Virus record (IMG/VR): IMGVR_UViG_3300025154_000144
Location: 1-48,653 of that record
Strand: one strand, 5' to 3'
Length of the DNA: 48,653 bases
Origin: a virus
Part shown: positions 1 through 48,653 of the stretch, in pieces
Numbering within the stretch: position 1 is the stretch's first letter
How the letters are laid out: every line of letters begins with the position of its first letter
The notes under the pieces: generated by a model
The model's input: the letters and a program-made list of their open reading frames with translations, nothing else
Database searches by the model: none
What the model was told of the DNA's origin: nothing
Made by a program: the position numbers and the translations under genes

Positions 1-1146
1 ATTTTTTTCATCAGGATACATTCGCGCAGAGACAATCTCCCTGAAAAAAATTCTACGAGAACTTCTATCCACAGCAATTGTTTGTACAGAAGTTTCAGCA
101 CTCTGAATCTTCACAGTCTTGGCCGGATCAACTATGGTTACATGAAGAAGATTTTTAGTTTTAATCTCGATCCTTTTCTCTTCATTCTCACCAACAGTTT
201 TCTCATAAACTACAAGTTTATCTTTCTGATCTTCAAAGTATCTAAAGTAAGATTGCTTAAAAATTGCATCTTCGAGAGCAATAGGAATATTCATCCTCTC
301 CATATAAAAGGAATCAAGAGTTCCTAATCGTCTATGCTCTTCAACTTCCTCCAGTACCTCAGCATCAGTCATGTAGTTCTGATCTAATGACTTGTAATTT
401 TGGTCACATATGGACAGCTGAACTGAAGCCCAGTCAGGAGAATCAAGTAAATCTACTAGAAGGGAATCTTCATGCTTAATTGTATCTATATAAATAAAGA
501 TACATCCATCTCCGTAACGATCCTCTGTCTTCATCAAATCAGACCAGAACCATTCCTTAAGTTTCTTCCTATTCTCCGCTGACTGAATTTCATTCTTATC
601 TTCCAAGTCATCAATGATTACTAACCCTGGACGATTATTGGCCCAGTTTAAACCCCTCACCTGTTGGCCAGCACCTCGAGGTAATACAAAAGTGGAACCG
701 TAAGCAGTCCAAGCTTTCTTGGAAAATGACTCATCCATTGCATCTTCGGTGTCAATAGAATCTTTAATATTTCCAAACAACTGTCTTACCATCTTATTAG
801 TAATTAAATCCCTCTTCATATTCTCAGTCTGCATTTCAGCTGAAGTTGCTGAATTACTGAGATAAACTATGAAGTTGCACAACCTGTATAGAATTGACCT
901 GTTAGCAATTGTTCTAGCAACACTTGTCTTACCAATACCCCTTGGAGCAGCAATAGCAATTTTCTTCTTACCTTGGGCAATCATACTGAATGATTGATCT
1001 ACCAGATCAAATATCTGTTGATGCAAGATACTGAACGGTGCATAGAAGATATCAGGAAATATCACTCCACAACATGTCTTAATATTAATTAGACATTGAG
1101 CCAATATATTATCCAGTTCTTCTTTATTTAAGTTAGGATCTAACAT
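1..1146 (-). CDS. terL: Terminase large subunit, N-terminal ATPase part (cut by the window edge)
   Basis: Packaging motor ATPase of the phage head. Read from ATG at 1146 down to base 1, it shows a Walker A motif APRGIGKT (about residues 67-74), a Walker B-like run VIIDDLED (about 172-180), and the start of the RNase H-like nuclease domain VTIVDPAKT with a candidate metal-binding Asp near residue 340. The frame is open at the window edge and continues in the gene piece at 48058-48653; closing the genome at the 126-bp repeat gives about 536 aa, normal for the family. The last two codons before base 1 differ from the right-hand copy, probably an end artefact. No clear Shine-Dalgarno is seen; a 25-bp palindrome ends 11 bases before the start codon. 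Confidence 0.93.
   Translation of the reverse strand, partial: MLDPNLNKEELDNILAQCLINIKTCCGVIFPDIFYAPFSILHQQIFDLVDQSFSMIAQGKKKIAIAAPRGIGKTSVARTIANRSILYRLCNFIVYLSNSATSAEMQTENMKRDLITNKMVRQLFGNIKDSIDTEDAMDESFSKKAWTAYGSTFVLPRGAGQQVRGLNWANNRPGLVIIDDLEDKNEIQSAENRKKLKEWFWSDLMKTEDRYGDGCIFIYIDTIKHEDSLLVDLLDSPDWASVQLSICDQNYKSLDQNYMTDAEVLEEVEEHRRLGTLDSFYMERMNIPIALEDAIFKQSYFRYFEDQKDKLVVYEKTVGENEEKRIEIKTKNLLHVTIVDPAKTVKIQSAETSVQTIAVDRSSRRIFFREIVSARMYPDEKN
6..131. repeat. Left copy of 126-bp terminal redundancy
   Basis: These bases are identical to 48528-48653 (offset 48522). The repeat lies inside the large terminase gene, and joining the two copies restores an uninterrupted frame. The first five bases do not match the right-hand copy, which suggests an untrimmed contig edge. 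It is most simply an assembly overlap of a circular or circularly permuted genome; a true short direct terminal repeat is possible but would lie oddly inside a gene. Confidence 0.9.
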
Positions 1147-1184: not shown

Positions 1185-1469
1185 TTATTTTTTATCTTCA
1201 GGCTGATGTAAATTATAGTTCTTATTTTCATTAGCAAGACGTTCAAGATTAAGTATCCTATCTTTAAGTCCTGCAACTTCAACGCTTATAGTTTGTACTC
1301 TATAAGTACTAAGAGCAACTTCTGCTTTCATACCTATAAGAACATTTAGATTTATAATTAATAAGGCTACTGCAACACCTGATAAAAATACTAAAATATT
1401 TGTTTTAAGATCAAGACCTGAATGTGCTGTACATACAAGATGTGGAGAATCAGGTTGTTTCTTATCCAT
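1185..1469 (-). CDS. Small membrane protein with one TM segment and coiled coil (possible lysis accessory)
   Basis: 94 aa. A short polar N-terminus is followed by one hydrophobic segment (about residues 25-46) and then a heptad-like stretch ending in a charged tail (about 60-94). That layout fits an inner-membrane protein with an exposed coiled coil, as in i-spanins or XhlA-like proteins, but no family signature is recognised. It starts directly after the holin candidate (2-base gap), so the two are probably co-translated. Function in lysis is inferred from topology and neighbour only. Confidence 0.65.
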   Translation of the reverse strand: MDKKQPDSPHLVCTAHSGLDLKTNILVFLSGVAVALLIINLNVLIGMKAEVALSTYRVQTISVEVAGLKDRILNLERLANENKNYNLHQPEDKK

Positions 1470-1471
1470 GA

Positions 1472-1723
1472 TTAAAACTCCTTTTTAGTGGTAGCTCTAT
1501 TAAAATACAGATTAACTATAGCAAGAATAGTACCTATTATTTCTGCTACATATTCTGTAACTCCAGCTGGAATAATAATAGTAGGATATTTCCATCTAAC
1601 AATTAACACAATAGCAGCTAAAACAATCCCAACTAAATTAATTGTTTCAACTCTATTCTTCCACTTAGCAGGATCTTTTAATTCCTCACCAGCTTTCACA
1701 GCTTTAATCATTTCAGTAATCAT
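1472..1723 (-). CDS. Holin candidate
   Basis: 83 aa with two hydrophobic segments (about residues 28-45 and 56-74) separated by a short turn containing proline and glycine, and a charged C-terminus. The N-terminal motif ELKDPAKWKNR recalls small phage holin-like proteins. Holins form the inner-membrane lesions that time lysis. Its start codon overlaps the stop of the tiny 32-aa frame upstream (ATGA), and a membrane coiled-coil gene follows. No endolysin is recognisable beside it, so the call rests on size, topology and the motif. Confidence 0.55.
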   Translation of the reverse strand: MITEMIKAVKAGEELKDPAKWKNRVETINLVGIVLAAIVLIVRWKYPTIIIPAGVTEYVAEIIGTILAIVNLYFNRATTKKEF

Positions 1724-1818
1724 AATTTACTCCTTAGCCATTTGAAGAATTTTTTAATTTCAGAAAATTTAACTGTAAGAATGATTCCTCTTAAATTCTC
1801 TATAGGACGTATATTCAT
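1720..1818 (-). CDS. Possible 32-aa cationic amphipathic peptide
   Basis: A short frame starting at ATG 1818-1816 and ending TGA at 1720. It overlaps the stop of the 703-aa gene (TAATG) and the start of the holin candidate (ATGA), so it could be translated by coupling. The second half (VKFSEIKKFFKWLRSKL) is strongly basic with alternating hydrophobic residues, like a membrane-active helix. Cationic lysis peptides such as disruptins are known in some phages. There is no good Shine-Dalgarno, and the coupling geometry could be chance in a 94-base gap. Confidence 0.4.
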   Translation of the reverse strand: MNIRPIENLRGIILTVKFSEIKKFFKWLRSKL

Positions 1819-3929
1819 TACTGTACCATTCTTACAGAAGTTCCAGAAGCTCTTACACCTATTTGCATACCAGTTGAATTAGTTTTACTGTATTTGGTAG
1901 TAATAAATTGGGCTAATACAGGCCCATTAATAGTTACAGCATTAGGTCCTTCATTAGTACCTAAATACCATCCATGATCTACAATCTCACCAACAGTGAT
2001 TGTACCAACATGCGTTCCAGGCTCAGTTAGATTAATACCTGAAATTGAACTGGTTACAATCAGCTGTCCTACGTTATCAGGCAAAATATTAATGGCCCAC
2101 ACCATAGTAGCATTATCTAGTATTCCCATAGGCCAATGAATCTCCTGACCATTAGCAAGATAAGTGCCATGTTCAGCAGCAGTGACAGTAGAATACGTTA
2201 ACCACCCTGCCGGAGTGCCTGTGTAAGGAGCAGCTAGATTTGTCTGAGTTACGATGTTCGGTCCAAACGAAGGCTCAGGAATTGTTCTTGAGTATCCCCT
2301 CCAGTAGTATATAGTTTTATCTGTAGTTCCTGCTGCATTGGCTGCATTGACTTCTTCCAAAGTATTACATAAATGCCAGTTTTCTTGTGAACATTCTTCA
2401 TCACAAACTACCGTTCCGCAGGAGACTAGATTATCAGGACACCAGTAATGACCAGTGGGCCACGCGGCAAGGCAAGTTGCTTCCGTAAGGCACAAGTCGT
2501 CCAGGGTATCGCAAGTATCAGTTGCTGCCGCCGTAGTGTAACTGAACGTTCTTTGAGTGACCAGGTTATTGCCTGCGACATCCTCCAAAGCAGTTGACAC
2601 CGTGACAGTGTAAAGCGTACTGTACGCTTGTCCTGAAGTGTTCAAGACGATTTCATTGCCGGCACAAGTAGAGTCGTCCACCCCTGGATTAATCGTCACA
2701 GCACTTTTTGTTGTGCAATTTAAGTTCTCATTAGCAAAAACTCTGAATGGCGTATTGGGCACAACCCCTACAGCTCCGTCAAGCGGGTTAGTTGTTTCGA
2801 TTGCTGGTGGTTCCTCGTCGGCAGCACTTGCCCCAAAAGTAATTTGTCGCCCTGGGGAGGCTTCGCCAAGAGAGTTAATTGCAATCAAATATGCCGATTG
2901 TCCACCACCAAACGACCCTCGATTGACCTGAACGGTTATACTATTCAATCCCCATATGATAGGGGATTGAATGGTACAATTAGTAGCTGCAAAGTAATCA
3001 GATGAATTACATATCTCAACCCTTGCCCTTGCGTTTGGACCCCACGCGGTATAGAAGTCATCTACCAAAGGGAAAGAAGGGGTAGGAGTATCGCGTACTC
3101 CGTATCCAGGAACAACTACACCTTTAACCCCTCCACCCTCTGCTGCAGTAGCCATATTTCGAACATTAAGTTTTGATGCATTCTTGGCCCCCGTAGAGTC
3201 GATCAACCTCATTACTACATCACCATCCGCCGTTGTCCCATTTGTTGACCCTTTTATCCAAGCGTCAATACGTTGCCAGCGCCCTTTTACCATCCAGCCG
3301 TTTATGTAAAAATTAGAGTTTGTTTCGGAAGGTAGTCTGAGCCAAGCGGCATGACTGTTACCCGTTACATACTGCGACCAATCACCAAAAACGGTAGGTA
3401 GACAGTAATCTGTGTTTGGAAAATTATCCCCACCATTAAGAAGCCCATGAACCCATACGGTTTTAAAATTTGAAGTTACACTACCATTTTTGTTTTGACC
3501 AGGCCAGTTATTATTGCTGGCCAAATAAGCTTGTCTGGACACAAATAGATGTCTCGACATTGGAAATTCAACCTTTCGGTTATAACCATACGCTGTACTT
3601 GTGGTAAAATCTCCTTGGAATGATTTTGACCCACTAAATGCTACCGACGAATACCTAGTAGAATCTGCTAAAGTAGGATTAAGGTTAACCCACTGCCCCA
3701 CTTTAGCTGAATTATCTCCGTATAAAATAGGTTGACCCACTGTTCCCAGCTCAAAATCATCAAAAAAGAACCCGCCACCAGATAACGGGCTATTGCCTGG
3801 ATTGGACACTGAGAATGTAATATTCTGCCCATCCACAATAGAACCTGTAGGAGCCCCTGGTTGTCCGGGAGCGGCAGCAAATGATGTTGTTGCACACAGC
3901 AGCAGAAATAAACAATACAATATTCTCAT
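1818..3929 (-). CDS. Exported multidomain surface protein (signal peptide, lectin-like, Ig-like, Cys-rich)
   Basis: 703 aa. The first 19 residues form a signal peptide with an AxA-type end. About residues 30-340 are rich in aromatic and Gly/Asn residues and resemble a jelly-roll/concanavalin-like carbohydrate-binding or lyase fold (inference). About 375-470 match the SbsA-like bacterial Ig fold (PPAIETTNPLDGAVGV, then LEDVAGNNL). About 470-530 hold roughly a dozen cysteines, suggesting disulfides and folding outside the cytoplasm. A beta-rich C-terminal region follows. It is the last and largest of four neighbouring signal-peptide genes. A receptor-binding or cell-surface role is plausible; no catalytic motif is identified. 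Base composition is more GC-rich than the flanks, which hints at acquisition. Confidence 0.7.
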   Translation of the reverse strand: MRILYCLFLLLCATTSFAAAPGQPGAPTGSIVDGQNITFSVSNPGNSPLSGGGFFFDDFELGTVGQPILYGDNSAKVGQWVNLNPTLADSTRYSSVAFSGSKSFQGDFTTSTAYGYNRKVEFPMSRHLFVSRQAYLASNNNWPGQNKNGSVTSNFKTVWVHGLLNGGDNFPNTDYCLPTVFGDWSQYVTGNSHAAWLRLPSETNSNFYINGWMVKGRWQRIDAWIKGSTNGTTADGDVVMRLIDSTGAKNASKLNVRNMATAAEGGGVKGVVVPGYGVRDTPTPSFPLVDDFYTAWGPNARARVEICNSSDYFAATNCTIQSPIIWGLNSITVQVNRGSFGGGQSAYLIAINSLGEASPGRQITFGASAADEEPPAIETTNPLDGAVGVVPNTPFRVFANENLNCTTKSAVTINPGVDDSTCAGNEIVLNTSGQAYSTLYTVTVSTALEDVAGNNLVTQRTFSYTTAAATDTCDTLDDLCLTEATCLAAWPTGHYWCPDNLVSCGTVVCDEECSQENWHLCNTLEEVNAANAAGTTDKTIYYWRGYSRTIPEPSFGPNIVTQTNLAAPYTGTPAGWLTYSTVTAAEHGTYLANGQEIHWPMGILDNATMVWAINILPDNVGQLIVTSSISGINLTEPGTHVGTITVGEIVDHGWYLGTNEGPNAVTINGPVLAQFITTKYSKTNSTGMQIGVRASGTSVRMVQ

Positions 3930-3931
3930 AC

Positions 3932-4648
3932 TTAATTGCCTCCGGTTAAATAGCTGAATCTCGAAGGTAGGCCAGATGGTGAGAGTGAAAATAAACCGAT
4001 ATAATCACCACTATCAACAGGATTAAGGGGATTGTCAGTAAAAGTGTAAGTAGGCTCACCCGCAGTAGAGGGCCCCGACCCTGTCCAATACACCCAAATT
4101 TTCATAACTGAGGCATCACCTGTTCCAGAAACTTGAGCCATTATCGAAACGTCATCAGTATCATCAGCTGGAATACTGAGCGCGTCTGACTGGACTGTTT
4201 CCACATATGCTGTGCCGTTATAAACATCCCATGAAACTATCGCAGCAGGAGCCGCACCAGAGTATTTCAGCTTAACAACGTATCGCAAGCCAGTTGCCCC
4301 GCTTGCCCGCAAAACTAACCCTATCGCGTCAGAGTCATCAAAATAAACGATTTCCTGCGTAGCCCCCCATTGGCATGAGGCAGGGATTGTTGTGTTTGAC
4401 CGGAGCAGACGGCTTGTCCCTGACACAGTACTCTGGTAAGCAGAACCAGACCCTATTAACCAAGTGCCACTATCCTGAGTGAACCCTGATAGATCGACGT
4501 TGAAACTATCGGAAAAAGTTAAAGTACTGTCTCCGCACACCACAGGCTCAGAAGGAATATTAGAAATAAATAAACTTGGTGCATTACTTCCCCACCCAAA
4601 ACATTGTACATGAATAAGACAAAGAAAAAATGTGATAAGATATCTCAT
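3932..4648 (-). CDS. Exported lectin-like protein
   Basis: 238 aa with an N-terminal signal peptide (about residues 1-18). The remainder is beta-rich: a start like TLTFSDSFNVDLSGF, a middle with YVVKLKYSG, and an end with GDYIGLFSLSPSG. This is the pattern of LamG/concanavalin-like carbohydrate-binding modules. There are two cysteines after the signal. It sits 2 bases upstream of the 703-aa gene and directly after the 152-aa gene, so all three are probably one translational unit. A glycan-binding role is inferred from fold-like patterns only. Confidence 0.6.
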   Translation of the reverse strand: MRYLITFFLCLIHVQCFGWGSNAPSLFISNIPSEPVVCGDSTLTFSDSFNVDLSGFTQDSGTWLIGSGSAYQSTVSGTSRLLRSNTTIPASCQWGATQEIVYFDDSDAIGLVLRASGATGLRYVVKLKYSGAAPAAIVSWDVYNGTAYVETVQSDALSIPADDTDDVSIMAQVSGTGDASVMKIWVYWTGSGPSTAGEPTYTFTDNPLNPVDSGDYIGLFSLSPSGLPSRFSYLTGGN

Positions 4649-5106
4649 TATTCTAGCCTCGCTCTTGCCTGATATGCAGCTATAACACTAGCAGGAAAAA
4701 AGTTTTGTGCCTCAGATAACGTAAATGTACCCTTAAGTAACAGACCTTTTATTAGCCAATAAAGATTTTCATCCATTGCCTGAGCTGTTCTTTCATCAAG
4801 TTCAGTAGTAGTTAAGTTACGAACAGTCCACGTTTTTGTTATCTGATTATTAAAAAGTATCCATACCTCAGCATTAGTAACTTGATTAACTCCCACTGTT
4901 GGAGAATTTATTGTCAACTCATACCAACCTTGACTATGTGCAATAGATTGAGTTTTAACTGGAAAGTTATCTATCAAAATAAATCCCTTAGAATCACTTT
5001 GACAAGACGCTCCTTTAGATAATGCTGCATCCCAATAGCACCAAGTTCCAGCAAAAGAAGAAGTAGTAAAAAAGACTATTATTATTGTTAGAATTAATTT
5101 TTTCAT
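4648..5106 (-). CDS. Exported protein of unknown function
   Basis: 152 aa starting with a typical signal peptide (MKKLILTIIIVFFTTSSFA, cleavage near residue 19). The mature part begins with a small Cys pair (CYWD ... ASCQ), is beta-rich to about residue 100, and ends in a helical region. Its start overlaps the stop of the upstream exported fibre-like protein by one base, and its stop overlaps the next start. I do not recognise the family; position suggests a partner or chaperone of the neighbouring surface proteins. Confidence 0.6.
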   Translation of the reverse strand: MKKLILTIIIVFFTTSSFAGTWCYWDAALSKGASCQSDSKGFILIDNFPVKTQSIAHSQGWYELTINSPTVGVNQVTNAEVWILFNNQITKTWTVRNLTTTELDERTAQAMDENLYWLIKGLLLKGTFTLSEAQNFFPASVIAAYQARARLE

Positions 5107-5861
5107 TACTCAGCCCATGCCCCATAAGTTGAAATATACCAATCATCTGAGTCAACCGTATAATAGCAGACTCTATCTCCTAAAGCCCCACCTGATTTTA
5201 TAGACGTTGCAACAGTTCCTCTGGATCCCCTGTATGATATATAATCTCCAGAAGCCGGAAGCAACTGAATAATTGCAGTTACACCTTGGCCAGTTTCTAT
5301 ACATCCAGATAATCCTGCAGATGCAGAAGGAAGAGTATAGATACCAGCACCTGTGGCAACAACTGTGCCCCCGTGATACTCATCATAAGTTAATGTGTGG
5401 GCGTCTGCGTCAGTTGATGTATAGATTTTTGCTGTAATAATTGTACCAGTTGCATCAACAGTTGTAGCAGCCGGAACACGCATCTCTTTATTAATAAAAT
5501 GTAAAGGATTATCTTGAGTAGGTTCTTCTATAGTTGGTATAACTTGAAATTCATCAACTGTAGCACCCTCCCACATGATTGGCCCCATAGTAAGAGAGTT
5601 AGCCCCCGACAGATCTACATCACCTGTAGGAGTATAATCAGAAGAATTTAAAATATCACTAAAATTACTTAATGTTACAGAAGATTCTAAAAATGGAAAG
5701 GTGGAAAATGAAGCACGCTTCAAGACGTTGCCGGCTTCAGAATCCATCATCAAGATAAAATCTCCTGATACAGGAGTTTCCTTTATAGGGTAACTACTTG
5801 CCCCAGCACCTAAACAACTACTGTAAATAAGAATAAGTAGGGGTGTTAAGTATTTATACAT
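5106..5861 (-). CDS. Fibre-like protein with signal peptide
   Basis: 251 aa from ATG at 5861, preceded by AAGGTG six bases upstream; a GTG nine bases earlier is in frame but less well placed. The first 20 or so residues are hydrophobic, like a signal peptide. The segment SGDFILMMDSEAGNVLKRAS resembles tail-fibre N-terminal repeats (a value followed by LKRASF), and the C-terminal half is beta-rich with features of a trimeric fibre tip (GYTLPSASAG-like, YISYRGSRGT). A secretion signal on a fibre-like protein is unusual, because virion fibres assemble in the cytoplasm. Confidence 0.6.
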   Translation of the reverse strand: MYKYLTPLLILIYSSCLGAGASSYPIKETPVSGDFILMMDSEAGNVLKRASFSTFPFLESSVTLSNFSDILNSSDYTPTGDVDLSGANSLTMGPIMWEGATVDEFQVIPTIEEPTQDNPLHFINKEMRVPAATTVDATGTIITAKIYTSTDADAHTLTYDEYHGGTVVATGAGIYTLPSASAGLSGCIETGQGVTAIIQLLPASGDYISYRGSRGTVATSIKSGGALGDRVCYYTVDSDDWYISTYGAWAE

Positions 5862-5875
5862 ATTCTGCACCTTAA

Positions 5876-7171
5876 TTAGTTAAACGTTTTTACAAAATTT
5901 ATAGATAAAGTATCCCATACTAAACCATTTACAAAGTAGTCGTCATAGAGAATTAAATAGAAATAATATACGTCAGGAGTTACATCTACTGAACTTAAGT
6001 TAAGAATTAACTCACCATTTCCTCTTGACCAATCAAACATAGAAGGATTAAGAAGTGATGTTATTTCTAGATTATTCACATTACTGATGAGAGATATATT
6101 TTTCACACTATACAAATTCACAGGAAGATCGTTACTCAATAACTGTAACAATACTGAGTTATCCCTGTTAAGAAATACAACTTCTTCCACATCTTTAACT
6201 TGGTTGGTGGTTATACTTTTAATAGAGTAGATTCCGTTAAGTGGAAGAGTAGTATTATCTGCTGAAGCCCTTACCTGAGTTACTGTACCAGGAGATGTAA
6301 AAAGATCAGAAACATTTTCATATGAAGTTAAAATTCCTGCATTTACATCAGTAGAGGTATTACCTGAAATGGATAAGGTATCTCGTAATTCAAGAGCTGA
6401 TAAGATTCCAGATTTTCTTCTAACTGTACCAAGTGAAGAGTAGGTATCTCTAAGAGGTTCAACACTTGCCAAAGTCCCTGAGTTAATTGTATTAGTGCCA
6501 GAACTTAGAAAAGTGTCAGAAGAGGTTTCAGTAACTTCTAATGTACCTACCCAAGTAATCTCTACAGTTCCCTCAGATTCCCATAAATCAGCAGATTCAG
6601 TAACTTCTAAAATTGCTGAAGATGCATAAGCAGTTCCGGTGAATGCAAGAACATCTAAATCAGTTTCAGTAACTTCTAATGTACCAGAAGCATTTGCAGT
6701 ATCTTCATTACTTAAGAAAACATCAAGAGAATCTGTAGCAGCAAGACTACCAGTGTTAACAGTAACACTTCCTAATATCTCACAAATGTCAGAAGATTCT
6801 AATGCTGCAAATGTTGAATGTGAAGTATAGTTAAGTCCAGTAATGTAACAGAAATCTTTTGCACCTTCAACTGATGCAAGAAAATTAGAACTTAAATTTA
6901 CTCCACCTATACAGATAAAAGTATCCTTAACAGAACTCTCAACAGCAGATAGAGAGCCTGAGTTTGTACCTCCAAATGAGTTAAAAGTGTCAGGAGTTGT
7001 TAACTCCTGAGCACCCATAGGACCTATAGAAGTAACCCATCCGTCATAGATGTACTCACCATTTTCATCAAGGATGAATTCTCCTGTAGAATCACGCAGA
7101 ATTCCGTCTGTGTAGAAAGCATAGAAAGAATCCCGTGAGGATTCTACAATGGAGAAATTTCCTGAAGCCAT
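5876..7171 (-). CDS. Structural repeat protein (tail or capsid surface)
   Basis: 431 aa. Residues about 60-300 consist of roughly ten degenerate units of 20-25 residues built around a pattern like GTLEVTETxxDxFxxSGT (for example LEVTETDLDVLAFTGTA and LEVTESADLWESEGTV). Such Thr/Ser/Glu-rich beta repeats occur in phage tail or head surface proteins. About residues 310-431 form a separate C-terminal domain. It lies between the 122-aa structural protein and the exported fibre-like gene. No enzymatic motif is seen, and the precise location in the virion is unknown. Confidence 0.65.
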   Translation of the reverse strand: MASGNFSIVESSRDSFYAFYTDGILRDSTGEFILDENGEYIYDGWVTSIGPMGAQELTTPDTFNSFGGTNSGSLSAVESSVKDTFICIGGVNLSSNFLASVEGAKDFCYITGLNYTSHSTFAALESSDICEILGSVTVNTGSLAATDSLDVFLSNEDTANASGTLEVTETDLDVLAFTGTAYASSAILEVTESADLWESEGTVEITWVGTLEVTETSSDTFLSSGTNTINSGTLASVEPLRDTYSSLGTVRRKSGILSALELRDTLSISGNTSTDVNAGILTSYENVSDLFTSPGTVTQVRASADNTTLPLNGIYSIKSITTNQVKDVEEVVFLNRDNSVLLQLLSNDLPVNLYSVKNISLISNVNNLEITSLLNPSMFDWSRGNGELILNLSSVDVTPDVYYFYLILYDDYFVNGLVWDTLSINFVKTFN

Positions 7172-7192: not shown

Positions 7193-7561
7193 TTATGCGT
7201 GAGTAATGGTAGCGGCAGTTAAGGTAATAAGTTCACCTGTTGTAATTGTAACAGAGTCTAAGTTAATATCTGAAGCTGAAGTTCCAACAGTAAGACCTGT
7301 GACTATATCAGTACCTCCAGTAGCTGTCCTAATACGTGCGGCTGCAGCAGTTCCTGTACCATCAGCAATGTCACTTTTAGGAAAACCACTTAAAGTAAGA
7401 ACTCCTCCAGAGGCTGTTCCTGCAGAAGCATTTAATGTGATGGTGGCTAAGATTGCAGCCATACCTGAGGTTCCAATCTCAATGACACCAGTTGAACCAA
7501 TTGCTGTGACTACTGCATCAAGACGTGCATTTTTAACTGTGGTTGTATAAGTTACGGCCAT
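7193..7561 (-). CDS. Small beta-rich virion protein
   Basis: 122 aa, rich in Thr, Ala and Gly, with almost no charged residues after the N-terminus. The pattern MAVTYTTTVKNARLDAVVTAIG at the start and a TVGTSASDINLDSVTITTGE-type end resemble a common family of small phage structural proteins that I know only as hypothetical or decoration-like. A good Shine-Dalgarno (AAGGAGA) precedes the start, and a 25-bp palindromic element lies just upstream. The role (head decoration or fibre part) is inferred. Confidence 0.6.
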   Translation of the reverse strand: MAVTYTTTVKNARLDAVVTAIGSTGVIEIGTSGMAAILATITLNASAGTASGGVLTLSGFPKSDIADGTGTAAAARIRTATGGTDIVTGLTVGTSASDINLDSVTITTGELITLTAATITHA

Positions 7562-7617: not shown

Positions 7618-8202
7618 TTACTCTTCAACTACATGCCCATTACACTGGGCTAACTCTATTGCTTTGTCCTTGATTCGTTGAAGGTCATCAGATGTAAAGT
7701 GAGCATGAAGGTTGCGGGTGTTGATGGTCTGTGCAGCCTTTCCCATGTGACGATCCAAAACTCCGTTACACTCTTTGAGAATGGAGTTAGCTGAAGCAGT
7801 TTGTCCGTGGACAGTTCCGTCTTCAAGAACCTCACGAATACGTTTCAGAGCAATTGGAGCTAAGTCCATAATGTCCTTAGCCAAATCAATACAGCCGACG
7901 TCACGAGCAGCACCCATGAGAGAAAGACGTTCCTTAACGACTGGTGAGTTGCGGACATTACTGACTTGCATCACCGATAGGGACATTGAGTCAGCAATAT
8001 CTTTATTGGTCTCACCAAGCAGGATTCGCCTTGCGATCTCATGATGACTCTCCCACATCTCCGAGACTTGCCAACCCTTCTTTTTCCCAGAAGAATTAAA
8101 CCCTTTGGATTTGCGTCCATCAGTCCTATCTGGTTGAGAATACCTGTCACCATAGTCATAAGTAACATGTTCCCCAGCTGAGTTAATTGTATTAGTTTCC
8201 AC
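7618..8202 (-). CDS. terS: Terminase small subunit
   Basis: DNA-recognition subunit that hands genome DNA to the large terminase. A helix-turn-helix is visible (ILLGETNKDIADSMSLSVMQ, followed by VSNVRNSPVVKERL), then a helical oligomerisation region (LKRIREVLEDG). I prefer the GTG at 8202, which has AAGGAG seven bases upstream; an in-frame ATG at 8235 adds 11 residues but lacks a ribosome site. It is the first gene behind a strong minus-strand promoter, so it heads the late block. Separation from the large subunit by about 6 kb of fibre and lysis genes is unusual. Confidence 0.8.
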   Translation of the reverse strand: METNTINSAGEHVTYDYGDRYSQPDRTDGRKSKGFNSSGKKKGWQVSEMWESHHEIARRILLGETNKDIADSMSLSVMQVSNVRNSPVVKERLSLMGAARDVGCIDLAKDIMDLAPIALKRIREVLEDGTVHGQTASANSILKECNGVLDRHMGKAAQTINTRNLHAHFTSDDLQRIKDKAIELAQCNGHVVEE

Positions 8203-8250
8203 CCTGAACTCCTTCTTATTATCATTATGCAACATGTGTAGAGAGTGTTC

Positions 8251-20217: not shown

Positions 20218-20511
20218 ATGTCTAAAAAATCTGTATTAACTTGTTCGTCTGAGAAAGTAGCTCCTGTAGGAAGTAAAGTTTTAAATTACGTTGTAGAATT
20301 AAGAAATTTGTCAGAACAACTTATATGCACAGTTAATGATAAATTAAGTTGTATTAGCAATGCTGTTCCACCAAGCACCTCATCATTGTGTAGTATTGAA
20401 GTGCCTGATAATAATTACCCTCCTTATTTTTCAGAGTTGAATTATCAATTGCAACAAATTAATGAAAATTTAACTCAAATTTTTGATGCTATAAAAAGAG
20501 TAGAACTTTAA
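20218..20511 (+). CDS. Tandem paralogue 1, unknown
   Basis: 97 aa. Its C-terminal half (VNDKLSCISNAVPP, then NNYPPYFSELNYQLQQIN and RVEL at the end) is nearly repeated in the next gene. The first 40 residues are unique. The protein looks like a short helical oligomerisation module with a Pro/Tyr linker. The ribosome site TTGGAG is present. Strongly AT-ended codons. Confidence 0.6.
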   Translation: MSKKSVLTCSSEKVAPVGSKVLNYVVELRNLSEQLICTVNDKLSCISNAVPPSTSSLCSIEVPDNNYPPYFSELNYQLQQINENLTQIFDAIKRVEL

Positions 20512-20531
20512 CCTCAACCCAGGAGTAATTA

Positions 20532-20759
20532 ATGTCTGAACTAATCTCAAAAAAGTATGTAAAATCTGATCAGGTAGTAATTAAAGTTAATGATAAATTA
20601 AGTTGTATTAGTGATTCAGTTCCTCCAGCTCCTGCTGAAAATGCTAAAGCTTATAGTAATAATTACCCTCCTTATTTTTCAGAGTTGAATTTTCAACTTG
20701 CAATAATTAACTCTAATTTAAATAAAATTCTTAATAATATATATCGAGTAGAACTTTAA
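20532..20759 (+). CDS. Tandem paralogue 2, mosaic of its neighbours
   Basis: 75 aa. The first 12 residues (MSELISKKYVKS) equal those of paralogue 3, while the rest (VNDKLSCISDSVPP, NNYPPYFSELNFQL, RVEL) matches paralogue 1. The upstream leader (AGGAGTAATTA) is also shared with paralogue 3. This is a chimera produced by unequal exchange or slippage. Function unknown. Confidence 0.6.
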   Translation: MSELISKKYVKSDQVVIKVNDKLSCISDSVPPAPAENAKAYSNNYPPYFSELNFQLAIINSNLNKILNNIYRVEL

Positions 20760-20779
20760 CCTTAACCAAGGAGTAATTA

Positions 20780-21073
20780 ATGTCTGAATTAATTTCAAAG
20801 AAGTATGTAAAATCTACACCCTCAGGTGCAACGCCGGGTACTGCTCATGTTGAAGCAATCTTAGCTGCACCTACAACCATAACCTCAACTACAACTGAAG
20901 TTGTGAAGGAGAAACCCTCAACAGTAACAGATACCCTTGAACTAAGTATTCAAAGCATCACCGATGTTATCACCCTTCTAGACTCCTTACCTCGTGTGGG
21001 AGGGAAACTTCCTGATAAGGTCATCTTGGCCCTTGGCAAACTCCACGGCGCTCTGAATCTTCTCAGAAAATAA
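20780..21073 (+). CDS. Tandem paralogue 3, unknown
   Basis: 97 aa. Shares leader and first 12 residues with paralogue 2, then diverges into an Ala/Thr-rich stretch and a C-terminal helix pair (LELSIQSITDVITLLDSL, then ILALGKLHGALNLLRK). Codon use becomes GC-richer after residue 40, as if the shared 5' end were spliced onto an unrelated gene. Confidence 0.55.
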   Translation: MSELISKKYVKSTPSGATPGTAHVEAILAAPTTITSTTTEVVKEKPSTVTDTLELSIQSITDVITLLDSLPRVGGKLPDKVILALGKLHGALNLLRK

Positions 21074-48057: not shown

Positions 48058-48653
48058 TTAAATTAAAAGACCCATTCTATCACTAGTCATGAATCCATCT
48101 TCATCATCATACAACTCAGAATACTCATCTTCTTCCAACTCATTTTTATACGTCTCAGGATCATCAGTTGGATCAAAGTGAACAGACTGACTATCCATAA
48201 TGTGAGTAATGTAAGCAGCTCCATCCATCACATCCCAGAGTTTACTACGTGGGAATCCCAAGAGTTGCATCTCAAGTGGACCGCAATTACTTTTATTATG
48301 ATACATGTAACCCAGACGATATAGTGGTGCTAGAGTTTTAATCCTCTCAATCTTACCCTTCTCATTCTGTCCTTTCTTAGCCTGCAACTGAAGGAGGAGA
48401 GGAAAGATTCCTCTAACCCTACACTCACTCTCGATAGGCTGAATGATAAACTCATTGAGACCAGTAACCTCGTAGCCTAAGATAAATGACTTAAACTCCA
48501 ACACTTGTCTAAACATCTCGTTGTAAATTTCATCAGGATACATTCGCGCAGAGACAATCTCCCTGAAAAAAATTCTACGAGAACTTCTATCCACAGCAAT
48601 TGTTTGTACAGAAGTTTCAGCACTCTGAATCTTCACAGTCTTGGCCGGATCAA
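48058..48653 (-). CDS. terL: Terminase large subunit, C-terminal nuclease part (cut by the window edge)
   Basis: The 3' part of the gene begun at 1146. It contains QTIAVDRSSRRIFFREI (second half of the nuclease sheet) and a C-terminal region with HIMDSQSVHFDPTDD. The apparent start at 48636 is an internal GTG, not a real start: the frame is open to the window end and matches bases 6-131 codon for codon. The stop lies two bases before palindromic element copy 13. Confidence 0.92.
   Translation of the reverse strand, partial: DPAKTVKIQSAETSVQTIAVDRSSRRIFFREIVSARMYPDEIYNEMFRQVLEFKSFILGYEVTGLNEFIIQPIESECRVRGIFPLLLQLQAKKGQNEKGKIERIKTLAPLYRLGYMYHNKSNCGPLEMQLLGFPRSKLWDVMDGAAYITHIMDSQSVHFDPTDDPETYKNELEEDEYSELYDDEDGFMTSDRMGLLI
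48528..48653. repeat. Right copy of 126-bp terminal redundancy
   Basis: Identical to bases 6-131. Shows the contig closes on itself to about 48,522 bp. The next five bases outward differ from the left edge (only one of five agrees), marking where the left end of the assembly becomes unreliable. Confidence 0.9.

Follow-up and report, generated by a model that had tools for sequence, protein, structure and literature searches.

The virus genome held in IMG/VR as record IMGVR_UViG_3300025154_000144 (48,653 bases; called the window here, meaning this whole stretch of DNA) contains four consecutive late genes, D, C, B and A, which lie between the genes for the small and large terminase subunits (TerS and TerL) and encode proteins with signal-peptide-like N-termini. 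Conservation of these N-termini strongly supports export of the four products, and it is likely that the proteins derive from fibres or spikes and bind the host or its glycans. That D, C, B and A together make up an exported module with which a podovirus-like phage recognises its host, derived from virion appendage proteins, is a reading for which we judge the chances to be evenly balanced. That the exported proteins dock on virions is a possibility that we place a little short of even.

A sequence-only reading of this DNA had described a run of four overlapping or abutting genes with signal-peptide-like starts, and all four open reading frames (ORFs) are present at its coordinates, on the minus strand. 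Gene D (5106..5861) starts at ATG 5861, with an alternative GTG at 5870. AAGG lies upstream of the ATG, and the product reads MYKYLTPLLILIYSSCLGAGA-SSYPI (here and below, a hyphen marks the predicted cut). Its signal peptide (about 5799-5861) is followed by a fibre-anchor motif, SSYPIKETPVSGDFILMMDS, and by a variable C-terminus. Gene C (4648..5106; 152 aa) has the signal peptide MKKLILTIIIVFFTTSSFA-G. Gene B (3932..4648; 238 aa), predicted to be beta-rich, begins with MRYLITFFLCLIHVQCFG-W. Gene A (1818..3929; 703 aa) has GGAGG ahead of its ATG and the signal peptide MRILYCLFLLLCATTSFAA; its N-terminal domain is common to other signal-peptide proteins, its C-terminal region is conserved, and a Big_5 immunoglobulin-like (Ig-like) domain lies at aa 371-466 (Pfam, E = 2e-11). 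The D/C and C/B overlaps are both TAATG, and the ribosome sites match the starts.

N-termini were scored by a simple, home-made rule (positive n-region, uncharged h-region, small residues at -3 and -1). C, A, D and B scored 16.3, 16.1, 13.9 and 13.4, while no other ORF of the window exceeded 10.9. N-terminal hydrophobicity, too, is highest in these four among all ORFs of the genome, and no second membrane segment was found in the four proteins. All four have the sequence features of Sec type I signals (an uncharged hydrophobic h-region of about 7-15 aa, a positive n-region and small residues at -3 and -1), the cleavage site of B being the least clear. AxA-type sites stand directly after the h-region (SFA-GT, AGA-SS and FAA). 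The best-scored cut site of gene B is unusual, and the h-region of gene D is the weakest of the four.

The description of these proteins as beta-rich, lectin-like or Cys-rich held in part. A carries the Big_5 domain and 13 cysteines after residue 22, whereas only two are present in each of D, C and B. When domains of the fibre or spike type were looked for, A gave only Big_5 and a weak match to a PHROG of unknown function, and B, C and D gave nothing. A lectin nature of B is unproven, as its AlphaFold model (predicted local distance difference test score, pLDDT, 43) gave no Foldseek match with E ≤ 0.001. A search of PDB sequences returned no match for A or B.

Relatives (dozens) were obtained by TerL and major capsid protein scans, together with small alignments; when A and C on their own were scanned directly against IMG/VR, no match was obtained. 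Within the window, 4/7 ORFs between terS and terL pass the signal score, versus 0/55 outside. For all IMG/VR relatives, including those that lack the cassette, 46/189 ORFs in the terS-terL interval pass versus 11/535 elsewhere (Fisher p = 2e-19, with relatedness ignored, so that ORFs count as independent despite shared ancestry). When the N-termini of the cassette's signal-peptide proteins were shuffled, 66/920 (7%) passed the threshold. Many relatives whose TerL is 60-75% identical have one to four signal-bearing genes upstream of TerL. In two contigs of about 50 kb that were read whole (G011 and G014), all four above-threshold signal-peptide genes of each lie between TerS and TerL.

The signal is kept in the A homologues of eight relatives (L039, L057, L098, L099, L102, L106, L108 and L109). 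Among nine D homologues the signal is 42% identical pairwise, against 70% for the adjoining anchor; the signal always has a positive n-region and never contains an acidic residue, as in real signals. The signals of the relatives are of Sec type I, of the lipoprotein type (the D homologue of L070, with the lipobox LTAC) and, in one case, Tat-like (L106). The earlier idea of a run of exported proteins is strongly supported as far as export is concerned, the signals being kept in independent relatives in these three forms. The Tat-like protein (L106:4619-5395), encoded in a run of signal-peptide genes just before an A relative, starts MNRREFIKKTYQIGGLAALYSLGLSHSDILAQ, with MNRREFIKK in its signal, and shows a sub-threshold, lectin-like Laminin_G_3 match.

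What D may once have been is indicated by the residues that follow its signal. D homologues share the signal and the motif SSYPxKxxPVxxDxxLxxDS, after which they diverge. The same motif opens a protein without a signal, L062:5989-6648 (MPKQSSYPTKATPVAGDKVLITDS); its gene is surrounded by head-tail and tail genes, and its C-terminal part gave a match to a phage 'endosialidase'. A looser version, again without a signal, forms the start of UOF83034.1 (MW202897), encoded between major capsid and connector genes. Both belong to unrelated phages, and in both the motif starts at the Met, where the signal cut would fall. In the signal-bearing forms it begins 1 to 6 residues downstream of the predicted cut, except in L070, the lipoprotein form, where the distance is 16. 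The single contig returned by a scan of genome contigs was from Mycolicibacterium; a tail gene on it has part of the anchor motif but lacks a signal, which gave no basis for assigning a host. The motif is thus common to signal-less proteins of structural operons, though no solved example links it to a virion. Comparison of these sequences suggests, as the simplest reading, that gene D is a structural anchor with an added signal, and its fibre ancestry is well supported. In three relatives (L064:6731-7507, L075:2014-2790, and L037 after its D homologue) a gene whose start resembles an HNH/NUMOD homing endonuclease by eye lies between D and the next signal-peptide gene.

Gene E (5876..7171, minus strand; 431 aa) has no signal. 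It consists of imperfect repeats around (L/S)xxxESxxD(x)F and a C-terminal beta domain (aa 332-428). This domain of about 108 aa occurs as a separate signal-less gene directly upstream of the D homologues in L037-L042 and L064; the domain is also present in the closest named phage, Desulfofustis phage LS06-2018-MD01 (LS06; TerL 49%, capsid 48%). The arrangement makes E a candidate cytoplasmic adaptor, or docking partner, of D.

Domains of the fibre and spike type are clear in relatives. In eight of them (L033, L034, L043, L044 and L114-L117) a signal peptide is followed by NVGTDWTNT and then by long beta proteins; that of L034 matches PF12708 and the tail-spike families phrog_2234/7458. The profile of this spike family reaches alginate-epimerase beta-helices, and this short match was all that the PDB sequence search gave. 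Upstream of the spikes of L033, L043 and L044 lies a signal-less protein of 145 aa, whose N-terminus weakly resembles (29%, E = 3e-4) that of a signal-less, possibly fused, 656-aa protein of LS06. L109 encodes a signal-bearing right-handed beta-helix protein (Beta_helix, 3e-21), and L102 has five consecutive signal-peptide genes, the first of which matches tail-fibre phrog_863 (E = 6e-21). L098 is a different podovirus-like phage (portal phrog_332, major head protein phrog_212) with three signal-peptide genes between portal and major head protein, the third being an A homologue. L076 encodes an exported GH123-like glycosidase, above the Pfam cut-off for PF19543. A B-like domain that seemed by eye to be fused to D in L076 found no support in pairwise BLAST. 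The run of exported genes in L076 ends with a signal-peptide protein (L076:9673-10131) that by eye resembles a secreted thermonuclease (VVRVIDGDTIKV...YGIDSPE).

Comparison with the close relative L057 indicates how such genes may be exchanged. Over TerS through D and the first 13 codons of C, the window matches L057 at 90% identity; in L057 these 13 codons begin the B homologue. Beyond codon 13 no similarity is seen except in the signal region of B, until it resumes at window position 2403 inside A. C is an accessory gene, absent in L057. The two B proteins share 37% identity, and strong similarity of the A proteins (60%) is confined to the C-terminal part. Since similarity stops 13 codons into the gene after D, the junction lies inside the signal sequence, and the alignment is that of module swapping with a breakpoint within the signal. 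Such fast swapping is typical of host-range genes.

The reading of D, C, B and A as an exported host-recognition module would work as follows. Proteins of virion appendages, with a fibre anchor, Ig-like domains and beta domains of the lectin or spike type, would have gained N-terminal export signals. Late in infection, Sec would move D, C, B and A across the inner membrane, signal peptidase would remove the signal and leave the fibre-anchor motif as the new N-terminus of D, and the exported proteins would fold in the periplasm. Capsids, tails and signal-less adaptors such as E would meanwhile assemble in the cytoplasm. At lysis both sets would mix; the exported fibres would most likely dock on the adaptors of released virions, and/or the exported proteins would bind or cut surface glycans of host debris. 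We infer cleavage, Sec export, periplasmic folding and docking at lysis alike. Late docking is feasible because P22 tail spikes and T4 fibres attach in vitro to finished particles, as is known from classical work. More tentatively still, several tailed-phage lineages might build their virions on two lines, with capsid, tail and adaptors made in the cytoplasm and Sec- or Tat-exported fibres and spikes matured in the periplasm and joining at or after lysis; signal cleavage would expose the anchor, and the signals would serve as junctions for swaps of host-range modules.

Several observations weigh against the proposed module. Export takes the proteins out of the compartment in which tails are assembled, and to our knowledge docking at lysis is not a normal step for tailed phages. 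A-D have no solved homologue, AlphaFold gave no usable model of A (pLDDT 36) or B (pLDDT 43), and tblastn found no match to A-D among 50,697 phage records. Four members of the same lineage (G001, G002, G010 and LS06) have no cassette; in LS06 the single clear signal match is a lipoprotein-like gene elsewhere in the genome. The cassette is therefore not essential for every member of the lineage, and the module is optional or replaceable. A lipoprotein form, as in L070, and a glycosidase-like protein, as in L076, would also suit proteins that never become part of a virion.

Such proteins would be late lectins or glycan-active enzymes, either set free or held at the surface; they would loosen extracellular polysaccharide at lysis, mask receptors of the dying cell and of debris, or exclude other phages. 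We allow this explanation an appreciable though limited probability. It agrees with the exported GH123-like protein of L076, the exported beta-helix protein of L109 and the lipoprotein signal of the L070 D homologue; moreover, signal-peptide genes standing side by side, five in L102, exceed the apparent need of one fibre position. Against it stand the mature N-terminus of D, a fibre-anchor motif common to signal-less structural genes, the signal-peptide spikes that resemble virion tail spikes, and the signal-peptide genes between portal and major head protein in L098. The earlier list of roles can be narrowed towards fibre- or spike-derived, host-facing proteins, with virion attachment and free or host-surface action both left standing; nothing specific was found in favour of its suggestion of a block to superinfection. 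It is improbable that the hydrophobic N-termini are uncleaved membrane or virion anchors of proteins that stay in the cytoplasm or at the inner membrane and assemble there. Cleavage of A-D is a prediction from a simple score, and the cut site of B and the h-region of D are the poorest of the set; yet AxA-type sites stand right behind the h-regions, the predicted cut coincides with the start of conserved anchor residues or lies within a few residues of it, there are lipobox and Tat-like versions, and signal-less homologues start at the cut point.

A still smaller probability attaches to C or A being a secreted endolysin with the other genes as accessories. Secreted endolysins with real signal peptides occur in tailed phages (Lys44 of fOg44; PMC6116005), and A-D adjoin holin- and Rz-like genes. 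No endolysin was recognised among the window ORFs scanned, with no Pfam match to a lysozyme, amidase or peptidase in twenty of them. Against the endolysin reading, no muralytic domain was found in A-D with Pfam, PHROGs or NCBIfam, C is absent from L057, and several relatives carry, in the same interval but apart from the signal-peptide genes, small genes whose products by eye resemble soluble endolysins of the M15 or amidase type. Chance hydrophobic N-termini or wrong start codons were rejected, and we regard them as next to impossible: D does offer a choice of GTG or ATG and hydrophobic N-termini are common in phage membrane proteins, but the enrichment (46/189 versus 11/535, with 7% of shuffles passing), the retention of signals through divergent homologues and the match of ribosome sites to starts contradict them.

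Among known systems, the tail fibres and spikes of Caudoviricetes (pectate-lyase-like beta-helix depolymerases; PHROG families) share with these proteins and their relatives the spike- or fibre-like domains, the hypervariable modular C-termini, the structural-operon position seen in L098 and the anchor motif of signal-less structural proteins. The difference is that the cluster described here bears export signals, whereas all tail fibres and spikes known to us are made and assembled in the cytoplasm and have no signal peptide. Secreted endolysins such as Lys44 and signal-arrest-release (SAR) endolysins are likewise late proteins of tailed phages that use Sec before lysis (PMC6116005), but A-D lack a muralytic domain, form a group of several genes and are glycan-facing beta proteins. 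Lambda Lom and the lipoprotein superinfection-exclusion proteins are phage-encoded envelope proteins with a signal peptide, and the gene for Lom has a tail spike gene on one side and a tail fibre gene on the other (PMC12309495). A-D differ from them in having no beta-barrel or membrane match, no clear lipobox and no second membrane segment, and in being mostly large, modular, coupled late genes; the lipoprotein form was seen in only one D homologue (L070). A lysogenic-conversion moron would be transcribed independently and have no relation to the late operon; A-D overlap or abut and have late genes on either side, and promoter-like sites were near chance level (34 found, 26.9 expected). Target proteins of phage diversity-generating retroelements are described as having no signal peptides (PMC6199706), and general signal counts have been published for Bacteroides phages (PMC5723332). 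A full-text search of open-licence papers found no earlier description of signal-bearing fibre or spike clusters.

A cultured parallel is Bdellovibrio phage phi1422 (NC_019525). Its signal-less tail fibre gp67 is directly followed by gp68 (L120:5917-7761; 614 aa), which has a strong signal peptide, MKFMIAFIIALFSVTMATA-QI. Unlike the window phage, phi1422 is contractile-tailed and has a single signal-peptide gene; gp68 gave no PHROG match and no homologue in other phage records. The phage offers a route to a first test of the exported-module reading. If that reading is true, the rule that receptor-binding proteins of tailed phages are cytoplasmic would no longer hold for whole groups of environmental phages. 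Host range would also depend on export machinery and periplasmic folding, infected cells would display phage adhesins before or at lysis, and both gene callers and host-range predictors would wrongly class such genes as secreted proteins of bacteria.

The late genes of the window run on the minus strand in the order TerS, F, E, D, C, B, A, holin-like, Rz-like, TerL, portal, capsid protein and tail genes, and the early genes are on the plus strand. The left border of the cassette is TerS (7618..8235), assigned from a weak PHROG match and same-place homologues in relatives, followed by gene F (7193..7561), a virion structural protein of 122 aa without a signal (phrog_3758). Between A and the right border are the holin-like gene (1472..1723; weak match to phrog_4237) and the Rz-like gene (1185..1469), with one N-terminal membrane segment, a putative inner-membrane spanin. 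TerL itself, the right border, occupies 1..1146 and continues at 48058-48651. The two ends of the record repeat part of terL: an N-terminal piece of 380 aa and a C-terminal piece of 197 aa together cover one 536-aa relative. Since about 40 codons are common to both ends, completeness of the genome is probable. More distant named phages include the Pseudomonas PaP2 group (Fredfastierviridae), at about 24-26%. Elsewhere in the window, at 20218-21073, three short genes follow one another, at least two of them with an identical start (MSELISKKYVKS), and look like recent duplicates.

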